DNA from: Cytophagales bacterium
GTDB lineage: Bacteria > Bacteroidota > Bacteroidia > Cytophagales > Thermoflexibacteraceae
Assembly (NCBI GenBank): GCA_947457925.1
Contig: CANGYA010000001.1
Location: forward strand, 1-64,000
Length of the DNA: 64,000 nt
Direction of reading: 5' to 3'
Numbering within the stretch: position 1 is the first letter of the stretch; the number at the start of each line of letters is the position of its first letter. The notes beneath the pieces were generated by a model that did no database searches, was not told the DNA's origin, and saw nothing but the letters and a program-made list of their open reading frames with translations. Position numbers and translations under genes: made by a program. This document shows positions 4,480-56,579 of the stretch, piece after piece.

Positions 4480-5076
4480 TTATCTTTTGTATTGGTCAAT
4501 AATATATTGTAAAATACCTAAAAGTTTGGGTAGCTCGTTTAAAAAATATCTTTCTTTATCTATAAAAATAGTATTTCCCTCTAATTTCAGAAATACCCAA
4601 TCATACGCATTAGTAACAACTCCATAAATAGTTTCAAAGGGTTCATCATTCTCTTGATTGAAAAGCCTTGCTGCATACATTTCGGCTGCACATTGAGCAA
4701 AACCTTCTTCGGGGTCTTTATTTTTAGATTCAAATAGGCAAAAAATAGGACTTTGCGGTACAATAGTTCTTGCTTTTGCTGAAATCAAAAAATCAGGTGT
4801 CCCACTCAATTCTTTATGTTTTTCTATATTCAGAGCATAGCCCGAAAAAATAGTAATAAAGGGATTTTTTATTCTTAGTTCTCGTAGAATTGGAAAAATA
4901 ATAGCCTCTGATTTTGCTTTTTCTGAATATAAAGGCAAAAGTTTAGCATCTTCTATATCTTGTTGCAATCGTGAAGTAGGAGCAACAGTAACAATAGATT
5001 CAAATAAGATTGCGTCTTCTTGCTCAATGCCATACTCTTTTCGAAGTTTTGGAAAAGTAAAATCCGAATATGCCAT
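4480..5076 (-). CDS. PD-(D/E)XK nuclease-fold-like protein A
   Basis: Soluble 198-residue protein with the layout of the PD-(D/E)XK fold: GTPDFLISA supplies an Asp, a strand CLFESKNKD gives the E-x-K pair, and the following helix GFAQCAAEMYAARLF has the conserved small and polar residues. The C-terminal half (IYGVVTNAYDWVFLKL, then a helix LPKLLGILQYIID) matches the ends of the proteins at 16322 and 55956. The N-terminus MAYSDF also resembles MAFSDF of the third copy. Nuclease activity is not proven; many such proteins are of unknown role. It appears monocistronic, with a -7 box at 5113-5120. Confidence 0.7.
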   Translation of the reverse strand: MAYSDFTFPKLRKEYGIEQEDAILFESIVTVAPTSRLQQDIEDAKLLPLYSEKAKSEAIIFPILRELRIKNPFITIFSGYALNIEKHKELSGTPDFLISAKARTIVPQSPIFCLFESKNKDPEEGFAQCAAEMYAARLFNQENDEPFETIYGVVTNAYDWVFLKLEGNTIFIDKERYFLNELPKLLGILQYIIDQYKR

Positions 5077-12053: not shown

Positions 12054-12062
12054 AAAATGAAA

Positions 12063-12095
12063 CCCCCTCACTTTTTTGTTTGGAGAGTGAGGGGG
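12063..12095. terminator. Bidirectional hairpin between convergent genes
   Basis: CCCCCTCACT pairs perfectly with AGTGAGGGGG around 13 bases, 10 bases after the macroglobulin stop and 27 bases from the end of the convergent response-regulator gene. T-runs are short on both sides. Confidence 0.6.
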
Positions 12096-12121
12096 AAGTT
12101 TTGGGAATTGAAGTTAAGTTT

Positions 12122-13132
12122 TTAAGGTATTCTTGATTTTACAGGCTTATAATATTCTTTTGTATTCTTCCATTTTTCAGGATATTTTTTTAGAACATAC
12201 GCCAAGATATTTGAATTATCTTTACAGTATTGAGATAAGTCATTTCCTGTTTCTTCTCTTGTTTTACGTTTTTTAGCATATTTACTAAATTCTTCTCCTG
12301 AAATCTTTAAATTGACTAAAAATGTTTCCATCAAAGGTTTATAATCCTCAATCATACTTTCTCCAAGAGCTTTTTTGACTGTAAATTTGCTGTTGATAAG
12401 TTTTTCATAGTATTTAATTTCGTCTTCAATATCCTCTCTATCTTGTTTTAAAGTAACTATAGACAGTTTTTGTTCAGCATTCACTTTCAAGTCATTAAAT
12501 TGTTCTTTCAAGTTAGCTATAAACTTTTCTATAATATCTCGCCAAGCTACGATAATTGTACCTTCTAAAACTTTTCCTTTATCTAGCGAGGCTTCTAATA
12601 TTTTTTCTATAACATCTAGTCTGAACGTCATAGCAAAAACTTTTTCATTAGACGGTAGCCATATTTGTGCCTCACGCAATTCTCTTTTCACTTTTACCGC
12701 AGGTAATGACAATATTTTTTCTATTGTTTTTTCAATATTTTCAGTGCTATTAAAGTCATTCTTATCTACATAATAACAAAAACCAGCTTCCGAAAAAGCC
12801 TCAACAGCCTTATCATATTCTCTAAAAACTGACAGAATAGAGGTTACAATAATAGAAGAATAGGGTTTTAGTGATATTTCTTTGCCTAAGCCTATTCCAT
12901 TTGTTAGTGGCATATCATAATCAATAAAAACAATGTCAATAACTTTTGCATTATTTTCTATGTATAACAAAGCTTCGTTTTTCTTATTAGGACAGTGAAA
13001 AGTCGTAATTGTATGAGGTAAAAGTTTTTTAGTTTCTAAATTAGCCCAAAGTTTTTCTAATGTTTTTTTTGTAGATGCAAGTGCATCTTTATTGTCATCA
13101 ATGATAACAAAGTGCATAGCTTTTCTTTCCAT
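12122..13132 (-). CDS. Response regulator with unrecognised output domain
   Basis: The N-terminal 150 residues are a receiver domain: the acidic pair in VIIDDN, the phospho-acceptor Asp71 in VFIDYDMPLTNG, a Ser/Thr strand end IIVTS, and the late Lys in YVDKND. Residues 160-336 are helical and charged and show no helix-turn-helix or enzymatic motif, so it may signal through protein contact rather than DNA. It is the last gene of a seven-gene minus-strand cluster, five bases after the histidine kinase gene, which is presumably its partner. ATG 13117 is a possible alternative start and fits the receiver fold (MHFVIIDD) better. Confidence 0.85.
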   Translation of the reverse strand: MERKAMHFVIIDDNKDALASTKKTLEKLWANLETKKLLPHTITTFHCPNKKNEALLYIENNAKVIDIVFIDYDMPLTNGIGLGKEISLKPYSSIIVTSILSVFREYDKAVEAFSEAGFCYYVDKNDFNSTENIEKTIEKILSLPAVKVKRELREAQIWLPSNEKVFAMTFRLDVIEKILEASLDKGKVLEGTIIVAWRDIIEKFIANLKEQFNDLKVNAEQKLSIVTLKQDREDIEDEIKYYEKLINSKFTVKKALGESMIEDYKPLMETFLVNLKISGEEFSKYAKKRKTREETGNDLSQYCKDNSNILAYVLKKYPEKWKNTKEYYKPVKSRIP

Positions 13133-13137
13133 AGCTT

Positions 13138-14517
13138 TTATTGTTTTAAGTGAACTGTTGCTACAAAATATTTTTCATCTTCTATTTTTGTAAATTCAGG
13201 TACAATTTCCCAATTAATAGCTTCTTCTACATTACTATTATTTGAACTATCTATTAAATCCTTTACAATCCACAACCCTCCACCTTGTTTTACAGCCTCA
13301 TTAGTTTCTTTATTCAAATAAGCAATAGCTGCTTCTGCCTTCTCTAAGTACATAGGTTCAAAGGAATTTTTGAAAGAAATTAATAATCTTTCATTTTCAA
13401 TAAAAATAGTAACTATAAGTTTATCATCTGTGCACTTGAAGGCATTATTCCAAAAATTCCAAAGAAAAATAAATTTTTTGGCTATGATTTTTTCATTGGG
13501 TGTATAGTTAAGTGCGTGATTTATTGCATCGCTATCGCCAATTATCTCAAAATTAATCGTATTATCTGTTATAACTTGTAACTCAGCTAATAGTCTTACA
13601 AGTTCTATTACCGTTAGCCACCTCTCTTTATTTTTGTCATACAAAATACTGTTATTTTTATCATGATAATTATAGATAGCACGACTACATAATTCTGAAA
13701 CTTTAAACAGTTTATCTAAATCCTCTAAATTCTTTAAAGCTTCTTCTTCCTCTTCAAACAATATATTATCCCTTACATTACTTAATGTGCGAGTTACATT
13801 TGCAAAGAGATTAAAAATTGTGTGTTTGTAGGCGAGGATGAGGTTTTGGAAAGCTGAGAGACGTTGATTTACAGCATTTAACAATGACTCTGATAATTCA
13901 ATCTGTTCCCATTTATTTAGTAAATCAAATGCACTTACTTCCATCACATAAGTAAGACATAAACTGTGCAGTTGGCTAATTACAAACTTAAATTTATAAG
14001 TATTCACCTCACTTAAAACACTATCAAAAGTCATATAGACTGCAAAAAAGTTTTTAGGAATGCCTGTTGTATGTGCTTCTGCAAATGGTATTGTAAACCA
14101 TACTGCATATTTTCCTAATTTATGGTTCTCTAAAAATGGGCACCAATAGTTATAAAAAGCATTCTCAGGAGTTATAGTTTGCTGCATTTTTTCCGACATA
14201 CTTAAACACCTTTGAACAATTTTCTGTGATAACATAGTTTGTTTAGGAATATCTTCTTGAATATTCAATGGTGAGTAAAAACAAGATAATTCATTATTAT
14301 CAGGCATCATGATAGATGTCATAGAACCATAACTATCCAAAAAAAGCTTTATTTTTTCAGCATATTGCTCACTACAATAACTATCGATATATTCGTTACG
14401 GATACCTTTTTCAATGTACTCATAAATAATTTCTATCTGATAGGTCGGCTTTATTTTAAGCTCTTTAAAAATTAAAGCATCAATTTTAGGTATCAGATTA
14501 GTAGATAGTAAATTCAT
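13138..14517 (-). CDS. Soluble histidine kinase-like sensor
   Basis: A 459-residue protein without membrane segments. The N-terminal 200 residues are an unrecognised, probably ligand-sensing region with a PAS/GAF-like mix of strands (YAVWFTIPF, KNFFAVYMTF). A helical dimerisation segment follows with a candidate phospho-acceptor His232 in AYKHTIFNL, then a divergent HATPase: N-box FLWNFWNNAF near 350-360 and G-box QGGGLWIVKDLI near 411-422. A clear D-x-G-x-G box is absent, so the kinase is divergent. Its start overlaps the methyltransferase stop by four bases (ATGA), and the response regulator follows after five bases. Confidence 0.78.
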   Translation of the reverse strand: MNLLSTNLIPKIDALIFKELKIKPTYQIEIIYEYIEKGIRNEYIDSYCSEQYAEKIKLFLDSYGSMTSIMMPDNNELSCFYSPLNIQEDIPKQTMLSQKIVQRCLSMSEKMQQTITPENAFYNYWCPFLENHKLGKYAVWFTIPFAEAHTTGIPKNFFAVYMTFDSVLSEVNTYKFKFVISQLHSLCLTYVMEVSAFDLLNKWEQIELSESLLNAVNQRLSAFQNLILAYKHTIFNLFANVTRTLSNVRDNILFEEEEEALKNLEDLDKLFKVSELCSRAIYNYHDKNNSILYDKNKERWLTVIELVRLLAELQVITDNTINFEIIGDSDAINHALNYTPNEKIIAKKFIFLWNFWNNAFKCTDDKLIVTIFIENERLLISFKNSFEPMYLEKAEAAIAYLNKETNEAVKQGGGLWIVKDLIDSSNNSNVEEAINWEIVPEFTKIEDEKYFVATVHLKQ

Positions 14518-15284
14518 TTTTCTATTTTTTTAACATAGGATATGATTTGGAAAACAGGAGCATCTGCTTTTGTACTTTTTTTATTAAAATCCACATTAAC
14601 TTTATAAATACCAAATCCGTATTTTTTTGCATATAAGTTGTAATCAGATATACTATATAAAATTCTGAAATATTCAGATTTTGAGTGTCGGTTTTTAGTA
14701 ATAAATTTCTTTGAAATGTAAACAGGTTTGTCTGATTTTCTGTAATAGTTTGCTATTTGTTGCAAATCTAAATCATCAAGAGCATACCTAATTATTTCAG
14801 TGGTGGGGTCTAGTCCTACAATAATAATAATAGCATTATCATTCATTTTTGATGATATTTTTCTGAAAAAACCATCTAAATCTGTAATTTCAATCAAACT
14901 TAAACAACATATAGCTATGTCAATATTGCTTAGATTATCAAAATTATCTTTTTCAATATCTATCTGCAAAAATTTAAAATTTATGGTTTCATTGTGCCTA
15001 ATTTGCAAATGTTCAATAAAAGTTTCATTATAGTCAATTCCAGAATAACTAAAAGATAATTTATTAGCTAACAAAGCATCTAATAACCAACCAGACCCAC
15101 AACCTATATCAACAATATGAGGAATATGATTAAAATTAGGCAGTATTTTTGTAATTTTTTGCAACAAAAAATTACTTAACCCAAACCTATAAAAATCTTG
15201 TTCTAACCAATAAGAAGCATTATCAGACCAAGATTTTTTATTGAGTTCGTAGAAGTCAGTAGGATTTTCGAGTATTTTAATCAT
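14514..15284 (-). CDS. Class I SAM-dependent methyltransferase
   Basis: A 256-residue soluble enzyme with motif I VDIGCGSGWLLDALL near residues 58-72, an acidic motif II at GIDYN, and the strand-4 region DIAICCLSLIEI. The length and organisation are those of small-molecule or protein methyltransferases of the Methyltransf_11/25 type; the substrate is not predictable. It sits between the substrate-binding lipoprotein (eight bases upstream) and the histidine kinase (four-base overlap), so it is firmly part of the same transcript. Confidence 0.85.
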   Translation of the reverse strand: MIKILENPTDFYELNKKSWSDNASYWLEQDFYRFGLSNFLLQKITKILPNFNHIPHIVDIGCGSGWLLDALLANKLSFSYSGIDYNETFIEHLQIRHNETINFKFLQIDIEKDNFDNLSNIDIAICCLSLIEITDLDGFFRKISSKMNDNAIIIIVGLDPTTEIIRYALDDLDLQQIANYYRKSDKPVYISKKFITKNRHSKSEYFRILYSISDYNLYAKKYGFGIYKVNVDFNKKSTKADAPVFQIISYVKKIEK

Positions 15285-15292
15285 TATAAAAA

Positions 15293-16297
15293 TTATTTTT
15301 GTTTGTGATACGTATCTACAAATAAGTTATTGACAGAATTATTAATGTCATTATTTTTTAGTATTGATAGGCTTTGTAACACCTTCCCCATCTCTTCCCA
15401 TTCCTTCATACTTGCATACAAAACCTTTCCGTCTTGTCCTTTAAAATAGTCCATACCTTTTTGTAGAGATAATAGTTCACGTTTTTCATCAATGTTTTTG
15501 TCATAGGCTTTCAAATATTGAATAGCTTTTTCGGGATTTTGAAAAGATTTTAACCAACCATCAGCCAGTGCATTTACAAAACCTTGCACAACTTCGGGCT
15601 TTTCTGTAACCATTTTACGAGTAGTAAAATAAACAGTTCCCAAAAAATGAATATCATAATTTTTAGGCTCAATAATAGTGTATTTAATACCTTGCATATC
15701 CAAAGAAACAGGTTCATCATAAATAAATGCAGGTCTAATTTGGTATTGATTAGCTATAAAAGTAGCCAAATCAAAAGGAGCTTCTATTTCTTTAATTTTA
15801 GCCTTGTTTAGTTTTTGTTTTTCTACTAAGGCTTTGTAAATGTATTCTGTATTTGTACCTGTTAAGATACCTACTGTTTTTCCTTCAAAATCTTTTGGTG
15901 TTTTTACATTCAATTCTTCTTTGGCAATAAAACAAGTGGGAGAATTATAATTGATTACACCGACTACAACCAAATCTGCACCTTTTGAATTTGCCACTAA
16001 GATTTTGTCTGCACTTGCCACACCAAAATCAGAAGAACCACCCATTACCAATTTTACAGGGTCTATATTATCTGAACCTGCTACTAAATTTATATCTAAT
16101 TTATAGGTGCTATCTGTTTCATTCATTGCAAATAGCTCACCTGCATAACCTGCATTAGGAAACCACTCTTGCACAAGTGAAACCTTAGTCAATTCCTTTT
16201 GTGTTTCAGTAGTATTTGTATTCTCTGTTTTTTGTCCTTTATCACAACTTGCCAATAAAACAAGCATAGAAAGCATTAGGATAGTTATTTTTTTCAT
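15293..16297 (-). CDS. ABC transporter substrate-binding lipoprotein (NMT1/SsuA-like)
   Basis: Periplasmic solute receptor with a lipoprotein signal (MLVLLASC, Cys18). The mature part begins QEWFPNAGYAGELFAMN and has the GGSSDFGVASADKILVA segment and the GKTVGILTGTNTEYIYKALVE hinge region (quoted as reading across residues 140-165), all typical of the NMT1/THI5-like and aliphatic-sulfonate receptors. The W-x-PN start is closest to pyrimidine/thiamine-precursor receptors. No TPP riboswitch is visible upstream of the cluster, so a thiamine role lacks regulatory support. It works with the permease and ATPase encoded upstream. Confidence 0.88.
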   Translation of the reverse strand: MKKITILMLSMLVLLASCDKGQKTENTNTTETQKELTKVSLVQEWFPNAGYAGELFAMNETDSTYKLDINLVAGSDNIDPVKLVMGGSSDFGVASADKILVANSKGADLVVVGVINYNSPTCFIAKEELNVKTPKDFEGKTVGILTGTNTEYIYKALVEKQKLNKAKIKEIEAPFDLATFIANQYQIRPAFIYDEPVSLDMQGIKYTIIEPKNYDIHFLGTVYFTTRKMVTEKPEVVQGFVNALADGWLKSFQNPEKAIQYLKAYDKNIDEKRELLSLQKGMDYFKGQDGKVLYASMKEWEEMGKVLQSLSILKNNDINNSVNNLFVDTYHKQK

Positions 16298-16321
16298 TGT
16301 TTTTTTAAGTTTTAGTTTGTG

Positions 16322-16972
16322 TTATCTATTCAAAATTAAAGTTTTCAAATACTGCAACATATACACAATTTTGGTAAGGTCATCAGGATTAGTGGCTAAA
16401 TATTGCTTAGAAACACAATATTCTTTACCGTTGAGTACGGTAAAAGTCCAGCTTTCACCTATCAACCAAGCCCCGTAAATGGGTTTGTTATCCTTATTTT
16501 CTTCTTGTGCCAACAACATTGCAATTAAGGCTTGTGCCTCAGCATCTATTCTATCACCTTTACTTTTTTTAAATTCTTGTAAGAAAAAATAAGGAAATTT
16601 GGGTCTCCCTCCTAAAGTTGGTGTGGCAATCATACAATCGCAAATAATAGAAAACTCATAGCCTTGTAAAATACCACTCAAAGGTCTTTCATAAAAAAGT
16701 TTGATTTTATGAGGTACTTCAACATGGCTTGCTCGAAAAACCACACTAATAAAATTCATTTTCAATTCCTCTTCATTCCATTCATTTTGGTTGATAATTA
16801 GGTCTTGACGTGCTTCTTCCAATACTTCTTGATAGTTAGGGCTAATTGTACCTGTAGCTTGTTCCCATTCCAATAAGTATTTACAATTTCTCAGCGTATG
16901 AATCTCCAAAGCTTCTTTCACATTCGCTACATCCGTCAATGAAATCGTATTTTTTTCTTTTTCGGGTTCCAT
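16322..16972 (-). CDS. PD-(D/E)XK nuclease-fold-like protein B
   Basis: A 216-residue soluble protein that shares its core with the proteins at 4480 and 55956: an Asp strand (IICDCMIA), then YFFLQEFKKSKGD with the E-x-K pair, a helix AEAQALIAMLLAQE, and the tail IYGAWLIGESWTFTVL followed by a final helix DLTKIVYMLQYLKTL. I prefer ATG 16972, 13 bases after the permease stop; the longer form from 17005 would overlap the permease by 20 bases. It lies inside the ABC importer operon between the permease and the receptor, an odd place for a nuclease-fold protein. Activity is unproven. Confidence 0.72.
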   Translation of the reverse strand: MEPEKEKNTISLTDVANVKEALEIHTLRNCKYLLEWEQATGTISPNYQEVLEEARQDLIINQNEWNEEELKMNFISVVFRASHVEVPHKIKLFYERPLSGILQGYEFSIICDCMIATPTLGGRPKFPYFFLQEFKKSKGDRIDAEAQALIAMLLAQEENKDNKPIYGAWLIGESWTFTVLNGKEYCVSKQYLATNPDDLTKIVYMLQYLKTLILNR

Positions 16973-16985
16973 ATAGTTTTTTATT

Positions 16986-17726
16986 TTACAAATACCATTT
17001 ACCAATTTTCTTTTCTACGCCATAAATCAAAACATACATCAAGCCACCCAACAAAGCAGAAAGTACAAGGCTACACATCATTAATTCTGGTTCAAGTCTT
17101 TTTGCAGCCAAAAATAGGTTTTTACCTAAACCAATTTCTGCCCCATTAAACTCTGCCACAATAGCCCCAATAACCGCCAAGGTTGAAGAAACTTTTAGCC
17201 CTGTCATAATACTTGGCATTGCCAAAGGAAAATAAACATGAACTATTTTTTGTTGGGTATTTGCATTATAAATATACATCAACTCGTGTATATTTTTGTT
17301 GATTAGCTTTACACCATTAGAAAAGTTTACGAATATAGGAAAAAAGCATAACAAAACAGCCATAAAAATCTTTGCAGTTGCCCCTGCCCCAAATAAAATA
17401 ATAAATAAAGGTGCTAAGGTAATTAACGGTATTACTTGACTTACGACCATAACAGGTAATATAAATTCCATAAATTTTGGAAAATAAAAGCAAATTATCA
17501 TAGTGCCAAAACTAAAAACTGTTGCTATCAATAAGCCTAAAAATGCTTCATAAAAAGTTACCCACGTTGATTCACTCAATGCAACATAATTTTCTGCAAA
17601 ATAAGCCATTATCAAACTTGGACTACTTATCAATACTCTCACTATGTTGTTTTGGGCTGCATATTCCCAAAAAAATAGTAAACAACAAGTAAAAATTAAG
17701 TATATGGTAATTTGTATCTTTTTCAT
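16986..17726 (-). CDS. ABC transporter permease (SsuC/TauC-like)
   Basis: Integral membrane subunit of 246 residues with about six hydrophobic helices. The EAA loop before the fifth helix is recognisable around MYIYNANTQQKIVHVYFPLAMPSIMTGLKV (residues about 150-180; short form IYNAN...FPLAMPSIMTGLK), typical of nitrate/sulfonate/taurine-type permeases. Its start overlaps the ATPase stop by four bases, so the two are translationally coupled. It forms the channel for the solute delivered by the lipoprotein at 15293. Confidence 0.9.
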   Translation of the reverse strand: MKKIQITIYLIFTCCLLFFWEYAAQNNIVRVLISSPSLIMAYFAENYVALSESTWVTFYEAFLGLLIATVFSFGTMIICFYFPKFMEFILPVMVVSQVIPLITLAPLFIILFGAGATAKIFMAVLLCFFPIFVNFSNGVKLINKNIHELMYIYNANTQQKIVHVYFPLAMPSIMTGLKVSSTLAVIGAIVAEFNGAEIGLGKNLFLAAKRLEPELMMCSLVLSALLGGLMYVLIYGVEKKIGKWYL

Positions 17727-19051
17727 TCACTGTAAAATTTATTTAAAAGCCTTTTTGCTACTTCTTGCATAAAAGGATATTGTTCGTAATGAGGATTATT
17801 AACTATTTCCTCAAAAAATAATTTGACTTCTGTTTTATCTACGTTTTCTCTTTCAGGTAAAAGACATAAGTATATCCATTTTTTTGTTGGTGGAAAATTA
17901 ACATTTGAAATTCTATTTTTTATACCATCAAATATTGATTCAAAAAAAACATCTTTTCTTGCATACTGATAATATTTTTCATTTATCATAAATGAAAATA
18001 TTTTTTCGTGCCACTCTTTACTAAGAAGTTGATAGTTTAAAATATCCCAAATTAGTTCATACTTTGCGGAATTGTCCACTAAATCCCATAAGGCAATAAA
18101 TCTTTTATGAAATTCAATTTTGTGAGAGAATTTTCTAACTAAAAGACATTTACTTTGTAGTAGTTTAGTATTTATTGGAGATAAAGAACATAATTCTTCA
18201 ATTTCAACTAATATTTCATAAGCCCTTTGTTCTGTAATTTCTTCTCTCAAATTATCTATTAAAGGTGCGTCATTCATTATCAAATTTTGTATTTCTAAAT
18301 ATTCATTTTGCAAATCCTTGATAGCATCAGTTTCAAAAACTCTTGGCAAAGGTTTATTGATAAGAATTTCTTTCAAAATTTTGCCTTCTTTTCCAAAAAC
18401 TAAAATATGGTTAGATAATAATAAGGCTTCTTGAATATCATGTGTAACAATAACAACCATTGGCGAATAGGACTCCCGCAAAACTTCTAATTCTCTGTAT
18501 AACAAAAATTTCCAACGAATATCTAAAGCCCCAAAAGGTTCGTCAAGCAATAAGAGTTGCGGTTTTGTTACAAAAGTTCTTGCTAAGGCTACTCTTGTTT
18601 TCATTCCGCCAGAAAGCTGTGCAGGCAAATAATCTGCAAACTCTTTCAAACCTACCATTTCTATTAAATTATCTATTTCCGCAATTTTACTAGTGTTATT
18701 TTCACTTGTCTTATTTTGGTTATTTGCTTTGATAAATTTTAAAGGCAGAGCAATATTTTCTTTTACAGTCAAATTTGGAAACAAAGTAGGTTCTTGAAAC
18801 ATAAACCCTGTTTTTCCTGCCTTTGTAAATTCTGTGGGAGTTTCATTTTGAATTTTGATATTTCCCTCAAAAGTATTTGTTGCATTGCCTTGTACTAAAC
18901 CACACAATAAACGAAGAAACGTAGATTTACCACAACCCGAAGCACCAACAATAGCAATAATTTTTGCTTCCTTGCTGCTAAAACTAATGTTGTTTAGGAC
19001 TTTCTTAGTTTTGGTAAATCCAAAGTTAATATTTTTGACTTCTAAGTTCAT
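17723..19051 (-). CDS. ABC importer ATPase with extra C-terminal domain
   Basis: First gene of the seven-gene cluster. From ATG 19051 it encodes 442 residues. Residues 1-260 are a complete SsuB/TauB-type ATPase: Walker A GASGCGKST at 36-44, signature LSGGMKTRVALA, Walker B LLLLDEPFGALD, and switch VTHD. Such ATPases usually end near residue 260, but here about 180 more residues follow, helix-rich and aromatic (for example LWDLVDNSAKYELIWDIL), with no motif I know. An upstream in-frame ATG at 19093 adds 14 residues that do not fit the family. The extension could be a regulatory or docking domain for the cluster's signalling proteins. Confidence 0.88.
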   Translation of the reverse strand: MNLEVKNINFGFTKTKKVLNNISFSSKEAKIIAIVGASGCGKSTFLRLLCGLVQGNATNTFEGNIKIQNETPTEFTKAGKTGFMFQEPTLFPNLTVKENIALPLKFIKANNQNKTSENNTSKIAEIDNLIEMVGLKEFADYLPAQLSGGMKTRVALARTFVTKPQLLLLDEPFGALDIRWKFLLYRELEVLRESYSPMVVIVTHDIQEALLLSNHILVFGKEGKILKEILINKPLPRVFETDAIKDLQNEYLEIQNLIMNDAPLIDNLREEITEQRAYEILVEIEELCSLSPINTKLLQSKCLLVRKFSHKIEFHKRFIALWDLVDNSAKYELIWDILNYQLLSKEWHEKIFSFMINEKYYQYARKDVFFESIFDGIKNRISNVNFPPTKKWIYLCLLPERENVDKTEVKLFFEEIVNNPHYEQYPFMQEVAKRLLNKFYSE

Positions 19052-19227
19052 TGTGCTTCGTTTCTCTTGCAATATTAAGACAGCTATTTTCATTATGCAA
19101 ATTTCCCAAAATTTCGATATAATCTTATACGTAACCTTTCCCCTAACTTTATGCTAAGTTATTGATAACCATTGACTTTTGTTTCCTTATTATGCTAATT
19201 GCAAATATAAAAACAAAGGAGGGCTAT
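19052..19227. promoter_or_regulatory. Divergent control region, ABC cluster and DUF3102 gene
   Basis: The 176 bases between the divergent starts must hold both promoters. It contains one copy of the TATAATCTTATA repeat (19118-19129) but no TPP riboswitch, no clear TAnnTTTG box and no obvious long operator. Confidence 0.35.
19216..19222 (+). promoter_or_regulatory. Strong Shine-Dalgarno site
   Basis: AAGGAGG stands five bases before ATG 19228. It is essentially the full complement of the 16S rRNA 3' end and decides the start of the next gene against the upstream in-frame ATG 19162. I see no other gene in the window with such a site. Confidence 0.75.
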
Positions 19228-19767
19228 ATGTGTATCAATGACATCACTACCGAAATCATCGCATTGCAACAGCAAATACAAGAAGCCGAAGAACAAAGTT
19301 TACAGAAGGCATTACGTATAGGCGAATTGTTAAGCTATATCAAAGAAAATGTACCACATGGAGAATTTGGTAATGTGGTGCAACAAATGAATATGCAAGT
19401 CAGGACGGCACAACGCTATAAAGAATTGTATGCACATAAAGATGCTCTTATCGCAAATACGACAGCAATGTCGCATTTGGGTTTACAAGAAGCCTACAAA
19501 ATAGTAGATAAGGAGAAAAAGAAGCAAAAAGCAACTAATAACAAACCAAGTGCCTCTAAAAAAATAACAGTTGCCACTGCCACTATCAAAGAACTAACCG
19601 TTTTTCAAGCTACCGAACAAAAAGTATTTGTAGGCTTTGAAATGGCTGCCGAAGAATTAGAATATTTCCTTCAGTTCATTAAAGACAAAAGTTTTAAAAG
19701 AACCTTAGAAGATAGAGTAAAAAAGTTTTATGAGCAAAATAGGCTTTTAATTACAAATAAAAACTAA
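19228..19767 (+). CDS. DUF3102-like protein
   Basis: A 179-residue soluble protein. The N-terminal half, a coiled coil (IIALQQQIQEAEEQSLQKAL) followed by IGELLSYIKENVPHGEFGN and VRTAQRYKELY, resembles DUF3102, a family known mainly from phages, plasmids and genomic islands; the tail from residue 120 is Lys-rich and helical. ATG 19228 is chosen because a strong Shine-Dalgarno precedes it. Gene content and translation signal both look foreign to this genome, and alkB follows 63 bases later on the same strand. Role unknown; a DNA-associated or regulatory function is only a guess. Confidence 0.72.
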   Translation: MCINDITTEIIALQQQIQEAEEQSLQKALRIGELLSYIKENVPHGEFGNVVQQMNMQVRTAQRYKELYAHKDALIANTTAMSHLGLQEAYKIVDKEKKKQKATNNKPSASKKITVATATIKELTVFQATEQKVFVGFEMAAEELEYFLQFIKDKSFKRTLEDRVKKFYEQNRLLITNKN

Positions 19768-55930: not shown

Positions 55931-55955
55931 TAGTGGCTAACTAAATCTTGTGTTT

Positions 55956-56579
55956 ATGGCATTCAGTGATTTTAAAACCATATTTGATGTAGCCAATAGC
56001 TACCAAACTACACTGACAAAGAGGTTTCTTTTTCAAGGAGTTGTACCTATGAAACTATCTTCTGAGTTTATGGAAGATTTGTCTTATTGCTTAGATATGA
56101 AAAAGCCCAACCCCAGCGAAATAGCCTTATCAGAAAACCTTATTTCTCCTATTATAAGGTATGTAGGTAGGCAACACCGCAATATTGTGATTTGGAGCAG
56201 AGAATATGATTTAAAAGTAGATGATAAATTATTTGGAACACCAGATTATTTATTTTCATACACCGAACAGCCTGATACAATTTCTAATACTATGCCTTTG
56301 GTATGCGTTTCCGAAGCCAAAGTAGATAATTTTACGATGGCATGGGGGCAAACCTTAGCCGAAATGGTAGCTTGCCAACAACTTTATCCCTCAATGATTA
56401 TCTATGGCTTTGCAAGTAATGGTGAGGTTTGGCAGTTTGGAATGTTGGATAAAAATGTATTTATCCAAGATAAAAATAGTTATAGTATAGCCACACAAGC
56501 CGAACAAATTGCGGGTTTGCTGAATCACATTTTTACACAAGCTGTTCAAGAAGCAAAAAAATATTTAGGTAAAAATTAG
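55956..56579 (+). CDS. PD-(D/E)XK nuclease-fold-like protein C
   Basis: A 207-residue soluble protein sandwiched between etfB (25 bases) and etfA (27 bases) on the same strand. It starts MAFSDF like protein A (MAYSDF), and carries GTPDYLFSY, then VCVSEAKVDNFTMAWGQTLAEMVACQ, giving the Asp...E-x-K spacing of the PD-(D/E)XK fold, and the tail IIYGFASNGEVWQFGML shared in style with A and B. The region between the Asp and E-x-K strands is longer than in A. ATG 55956 is preferred to GTG 55950. Role in or near electron transfer is not implied; it is probably an insertion. Confidence 0.75.
   Translation: MAFSDFKTIFDVANSYQTTLTKRFLFQGVVPMKLSSEFMEDLSYCLDMKKPNPSEIALSENLISPIIRYVGRQHRNIVIWSREYDLKVDDKLFGTPDYLFSYTEQPDTISNTMPLVCVSEAKVDNFTMAWGQTLAEMVACQQLYPSMIIYGFASNGEVWQFGMLDKNVFIQDKNSYSIATQAEQIAGLLNHIFTQAVQEAKKYLGKN

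Follow-up and report, generated by a model that had tools for sequence, protein, structure and literature searches.

Seven minus-strand open reading frames at 12122–19093 of the window (the whole stretch of 64,000 nucleotides that was analyzed) encode one ABC importer, one methyltransferase, one soluble kinase/receiver pair and one PD-(D/E)XK-like protein, and this combination of genes is new. In our best reading, to which we give about an even chance, they form a horizontally acquired, AT-rich importer/methyltransferase operon regulated by the soluble kinase/receiver pair, and the PD-(D/E)XK-like gene is uninvolved in transport.

The sequence-only reading had described seven tightly packed genes, and all of them were confirmed in the ORF listing. 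The ATPase/permease and methyltransferase/kinase junctions are ATGA overlaps of 4 bases; at the remaining junctions, 5 to 24 bases separate the genes. At 29.8% GC, open frames of these lengths have chance probabilities of ∼1e-8 to 1e-17. One bidirectional intrinsic terminator (12060–12100) separates the regulator gene from the alpha-2-macroglobulin-like gene that converges on it; the terminator contains one 10-bp stem, with an MFE of −18.2 kcal/mol and a z of −4.34, and T-rich sequence follows the hairpin. One weak minus-strand terminator-like site was observed at 16445–16423, within the nuclease-like gene; the chance expectation over the region is 2.6 such sites. Promoter-like matches in the cluster are no more frequent than in shuffled sequence, therefore no internal promoter can be claimed. 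Taken together, the spacing and the terminator indicate that the seven genes are likely expressed from a single transcript.

By its domain content, the importer is an ordinary NitT/TauT-class ABC system, composed of one NMT1 receptor, one BPD_transp_1 permease and one complete ATPase. Pfam agrees with the domain calls of the sequence-only reading for these three proteins, the class I methyltransferase and the receiver, and its view that the importer part is ordinary by itself also holds. The ATPase gene is located at 17723–19051 (minus strand; ABC_tran E 7.5e-32) when read from the ATG at 19051; the ORF runs to 19093, and the alternative start gives 17723–19093. The Walker A, LSGGM signature, Walker B and H-loop motifs are all intact. 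The ATPase carries one C-terminal extension of ∼190 residues (encoded at 17723–18307), which is unclassified and has zero matches in Pfam, PDB, PHROG and plasmids. SaoA and PhnT2 are the best NCBIfam models of the ATPase, both far under their cut-offs; the Sao (SaoA/SaoP) importer is likewise not supported, with scores of 169.8 bits against a cut-off of 360 and 83.1 bits against 295. The single permease (16986–17726, minus strand; BPD_transp_1 E 4.7e-23) contains seven hydrophobic segments and, as the product of a lone permease gene, would function as a homodimer.

The receptor (15293–16297, minus strand) is one NMT1/ThiY-type substrate-binding lipoprotein with an LLASC lipobox; its NMT1 match (E 5.6e-38) scores 131.4 bits, compared to the Pfam cut-off of 20.5. 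A phmmer search of the PDB returned 4nmy (E 1e-19) and 3ix1 (E 7e-11), and no other structure at E 0.01. 3ix1 is a binder of N-formyl-4-amino-5-aminomethyl-2-methylpyrimidine (FAMP). Judged by sequence, the receptor is thus nearest, among solved structures, to the ThiY-type binders of pyrimidine precursors, and the substrate is plausibly a small heterocyclic, thiamine-pyrimidine-like compound. The receptor has distant relatives only, ∼20–28% identical to it where aligned; at E 1e-10 they occur in 29 of 395 Bacteroidota genomes (its own genome counted), with a best identity of 27%. Plasmid-borne relatives sit in ordinary importer operons. One further relative (L092, G279:C9) adjoins an apparent nonribosomal peptide cluster, which, as read from the ORFs, contains a 2299-residue protein, a thioesterase-like protein and ABC genes.

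Like the ThiXYZ or NMT1-THI5 (NitT/TauT) importers (3ix1, 4nmy), the cluster encodes one permease, one ATPase and one receptor, which is homologous to theirs over most of its length, and the class is the same. Different from them, the ATPase bears the 190-residue C-terminal extension, the operon adds methyltransferase and two-component genes, and no riboswitch was found; the Rfam search of the window matched only one tRNA. Control by TPP riboswitches is common in the ThiY (FAMP/HMP-binding) subfamily, although not strictly defining. In line with such a substrate, no match to thiC was found in this genome, which is 96.9% complete. A same-genus relative also lacks thiC, yet it has no such importer; therefore, the absence of thiC alone does not point to the importer. 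Across the 13 genomes compared, its own included, thiC is missing in 11, which suggests that dependence on outside thiamine or its precursors is wide in the group.

The methyltransferase (14514–15284, minus strand) is a class I SAM enzyme with a GCGSG motif (Methyltransf_25 E 2.5e-10). BioC and UbiG models match under their cut-offs, and the best matches are of small-molecule type. The nearest separate importer found elsewhere is that of the Chloroherpetonaceae MAG PL23b_bin.36 (JANQGG010000015.1, locus L106). Like the cluster, the L106 cassette runs ATPase-permease-receptor-methyltransferase on a single strand, and its genes overlap or lie a short distance apart. Different from the cluster, it lacks the kinase, the regulator, the nuclease-like gene and the extension of the ATPase, and the methyltransferase it encodes is distant in sequence. 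The L106 receptor is 27% identical over residues 6–322; shuffle Z values against the window proteins are 21 for the receptor, 13 for the ATPase core, 5.5 for the permease and 4.1 for the methyltransferase. The last value comes from full-length alignment of the two methyltransferases; BLASTP between them gave an E of 0.05. Since these two enzymes are only distantly alike, the shared order could be a coincidence, and this one instance is suggestive of an association between importer and methyltransferase. In Herpetosiphon, one neighbouring gene carries a methyltransferase annotation; its product showed no alignment with the cluster enzyme, and the gene lies on the opposite strand.

The kinase-like protein (13138–14517, minus strand) has no Pfam match. 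Aligned with eight Bacteroidota histidine kinases, its KHTIFN coincides with the H-box, His232 being the candidate phosphoacceptor, its WNFWNNAFK with the N-box and its GGGLWIV with the G2 box; the D-box is degenerate. The hhalign score of this alignment is 30.5, compared to a maximum of 21.9 in 100 shuffles, 11.7 for the reversed sequence and at most 18.2 for the six other cluster proteins. Residues 352–427 form the scored core, so it is the ATPase domain that is supported; the H-box comes from the wider, low-threshold alignment only. This profile comparison supports a real but diverged ATPase domain in the kinase. No homologue was detected in about 730 genomes (mostly Bacteroidota), viral contigs and plasmids, where the overlapping samples comprised 13 family, 395 Bacteroidota and 385 class genomes; a scan for peptide patterns in 84,980 species gave none either.

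The response regulator (12122–13132, minus strand) is composed of one receiver domain and one C-terminal part of ∼195 residues. The Response_reg match (E 6.9e-7) scores 29.9 bits, slightly below the cut-off of 30.2; the catalytic residues are canonical, with D12/D13 in IIDDN, D71 in FIDYDMP, T97 in IIVTSI and K124 in YYVDKNDF. As the sequence-only reading had proposed, the kinase and the regulator have no membrane segments, and the output part of the regulator lacks a known DNA-binding domain, its C-terminus matching no family. Searches with the regulator found receiver domains only, and nothing on plasmids. Single-sequence structure predictions, with mean pLDDT of 32 for the kinase and 40 for the regulator, were set aside. 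The two proteins are probably an orphan soluble two-component pair that regulates the operon, and the only link between the pair and the importer is operon position. A more specific version is a phosphorelay-gated ABC importer, in which the phosphorylated regulator would use its C-terminal part to contact the ATPase extension and so switch uptake on or off, depending on how much of the imported (or methylated) molecule is present; this we consider unlikely.

In several other Bacteroidota, NMT1/ThiY-type receptor domains are fused to histidine kinases (loci L061, L063–L066 and L069), so that importer-type receptors are reused there as sensors. Like the cluster, L063, L065 and L069 couple the same receptor family to one histidine kinase; different from the cluster, where the proteins are separate, receptor and kinase are parts of one polypeptide. 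Some Bacteroidota receptor relatives also adjoin genes for receiver and kinase proteins. Together with the fusions, these neighbours indicate that linkage of this receptor family to phosphorelays is not unusual in the phylum.

The PD-(D/E)XK-like gene (16322–16972 from its ATG start, minus strand) sits between the permease and receptor genes; PADLOC model PDLC01472 (E 6e-12 to 7e-12) agrees with the earlier fold call. Its family has 24 matches in the same genome, spread over many contigs and some in tandem, and the best paralogue is 42% identical. In their flanks, the copies have little sequence in common except for overlapping tandem loci and short repeats. Two related genes are present in the window, at 4480–5076 (minus strand) and 55950–56579 (plus strand), and one of them stands between genes resembling etfB and etfA. 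With 24 dispersed copies, the gene says little about the function of the cluster and is most likely a passenger.

These results bear on the proposal that import, methylation, phosphorelay and nuclease-fold protein act jointly as one seven-part system. The tight packing and the one strong terminator that closes the cluster are in line with it; however, the nuclease-like gene has 24 copies scattered over the genome, itself included, and the only related cassette, L106, is without three of the four extra genes. We therefore consider one joint system very unlikely. As for the coupled system of the sequence-only reading, the methyltransferase part gains one weak independent instance from L106, whereas the nuclease-fold gene drops out as a multicopy element and the kinase and regulator find no counterpart there. 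The ABC genes without the extra genes were thus seen for three of the four, in a single relative, and the search for the same gene order recovered ATPase-permease-receptor-methyltransferase but not the kinase, regulator or nuclease-like gene.

The kinase/receiver pair, the methyltransferase and the PD-(D/E)XK protein might also be read as an anti-phage module of a defence or conflict island. HEF_HK (PF19191)/Response_reg_2 (PF19192) pairs are tied to restriction-modification systems and paraMORC-type ATPases (PMC8011034). Like in these pairs, kinase-like and receiver-like genes are adjacent in the cluster, and the PD-(D/E)XK match derives from a PADLOC model; however, neither domain matches the cluster proteins. 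HEF_HK has no match in the genome, Response_reg_2 gave no match in the Pfam searches, the kinase and the regulator have no PADLOC match, and the methyltransferase resembles small-molecule enzymes. For the HEF_HK class, this explanation is largely refuted, and overall we regard a defence role as highly improbable.

The GC content of the cluster is 29.8%, 7 points lower than that of the window (36.7%). In 12 same-family genomes, the kinase was not found and the receptor had no close match. In five relatives, none of the seven cluster proteins was found in the stretches inspected downstream of the alpha-2-macroglobulin gene that flanks the cluster, and the DNA at this position differs among the relatives examined. 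The right-hand neighbours of the cluster are likewise missing from the inspected stretches around that gene, which precludes an exact empty-site comparison. From the low GC content, the lack of close matches in the family and the absence beside the macroglobulin gene in relatives, we infer that the cluster was acquired horizontally at a variable site. One DUF3102-like gene (19162–19767, plus strand), divergent from the cluster and 33.7% in GC, was not found in seven relatives and may have been acquired along with it.

The same setting leaves room for accidental neighbours, that is, an importer cassette (perhaps with the methyltransferase) that came to lie beside a soluble two-component pair unrelated to it, at a low-GC, variable site of insertion downstream of the macroglobulin gene, so that the two share one transcript by position only. 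In addition to the low GC content and the variable DNA downstream of the macroglobulin gene, the member of the multicopy nuclease-like family inside the operon and the L106 cassette without kinase and regulator fit this explanation. However, the ATGA overlap between methyltransferase and kinase, the single strand and the evenly low GC content suggest that the genes have been moving as a group for some time. We consider accidental association possible, but less probable than the regulated importer/methyltransferase operon.

In the regulated operon, the lipoprotein would capture the ligand, as expected from its homology, and homodimers of the permease and the ATPase, in keeping with established knowledge of the family, would import it. 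The methyltransferase may then modify the ligand or one of its derivatives in the cytoplasm. The soluble kinase and the receiver protein would most likely respond to a signal in the cytoplasm, and their effect on the operon or the importer would most likely run through protein contacts rather than through a recognised DNA-binding domain; the PD-(D/E)XK gene, a member of a dispersed family, would have no part in transport. If the pair does not govern the importer, the cluster is an example of tight operon packing that misleads, with a multicopy gene inside. If it does, an importer of the vitamin-precursor type would be under the control of a two-component system that senses the cytoplasm and has no obvious DNA-binding output, and the pairing of importer and methyltransferase would suggest an undescribed salvage or modification pathway.
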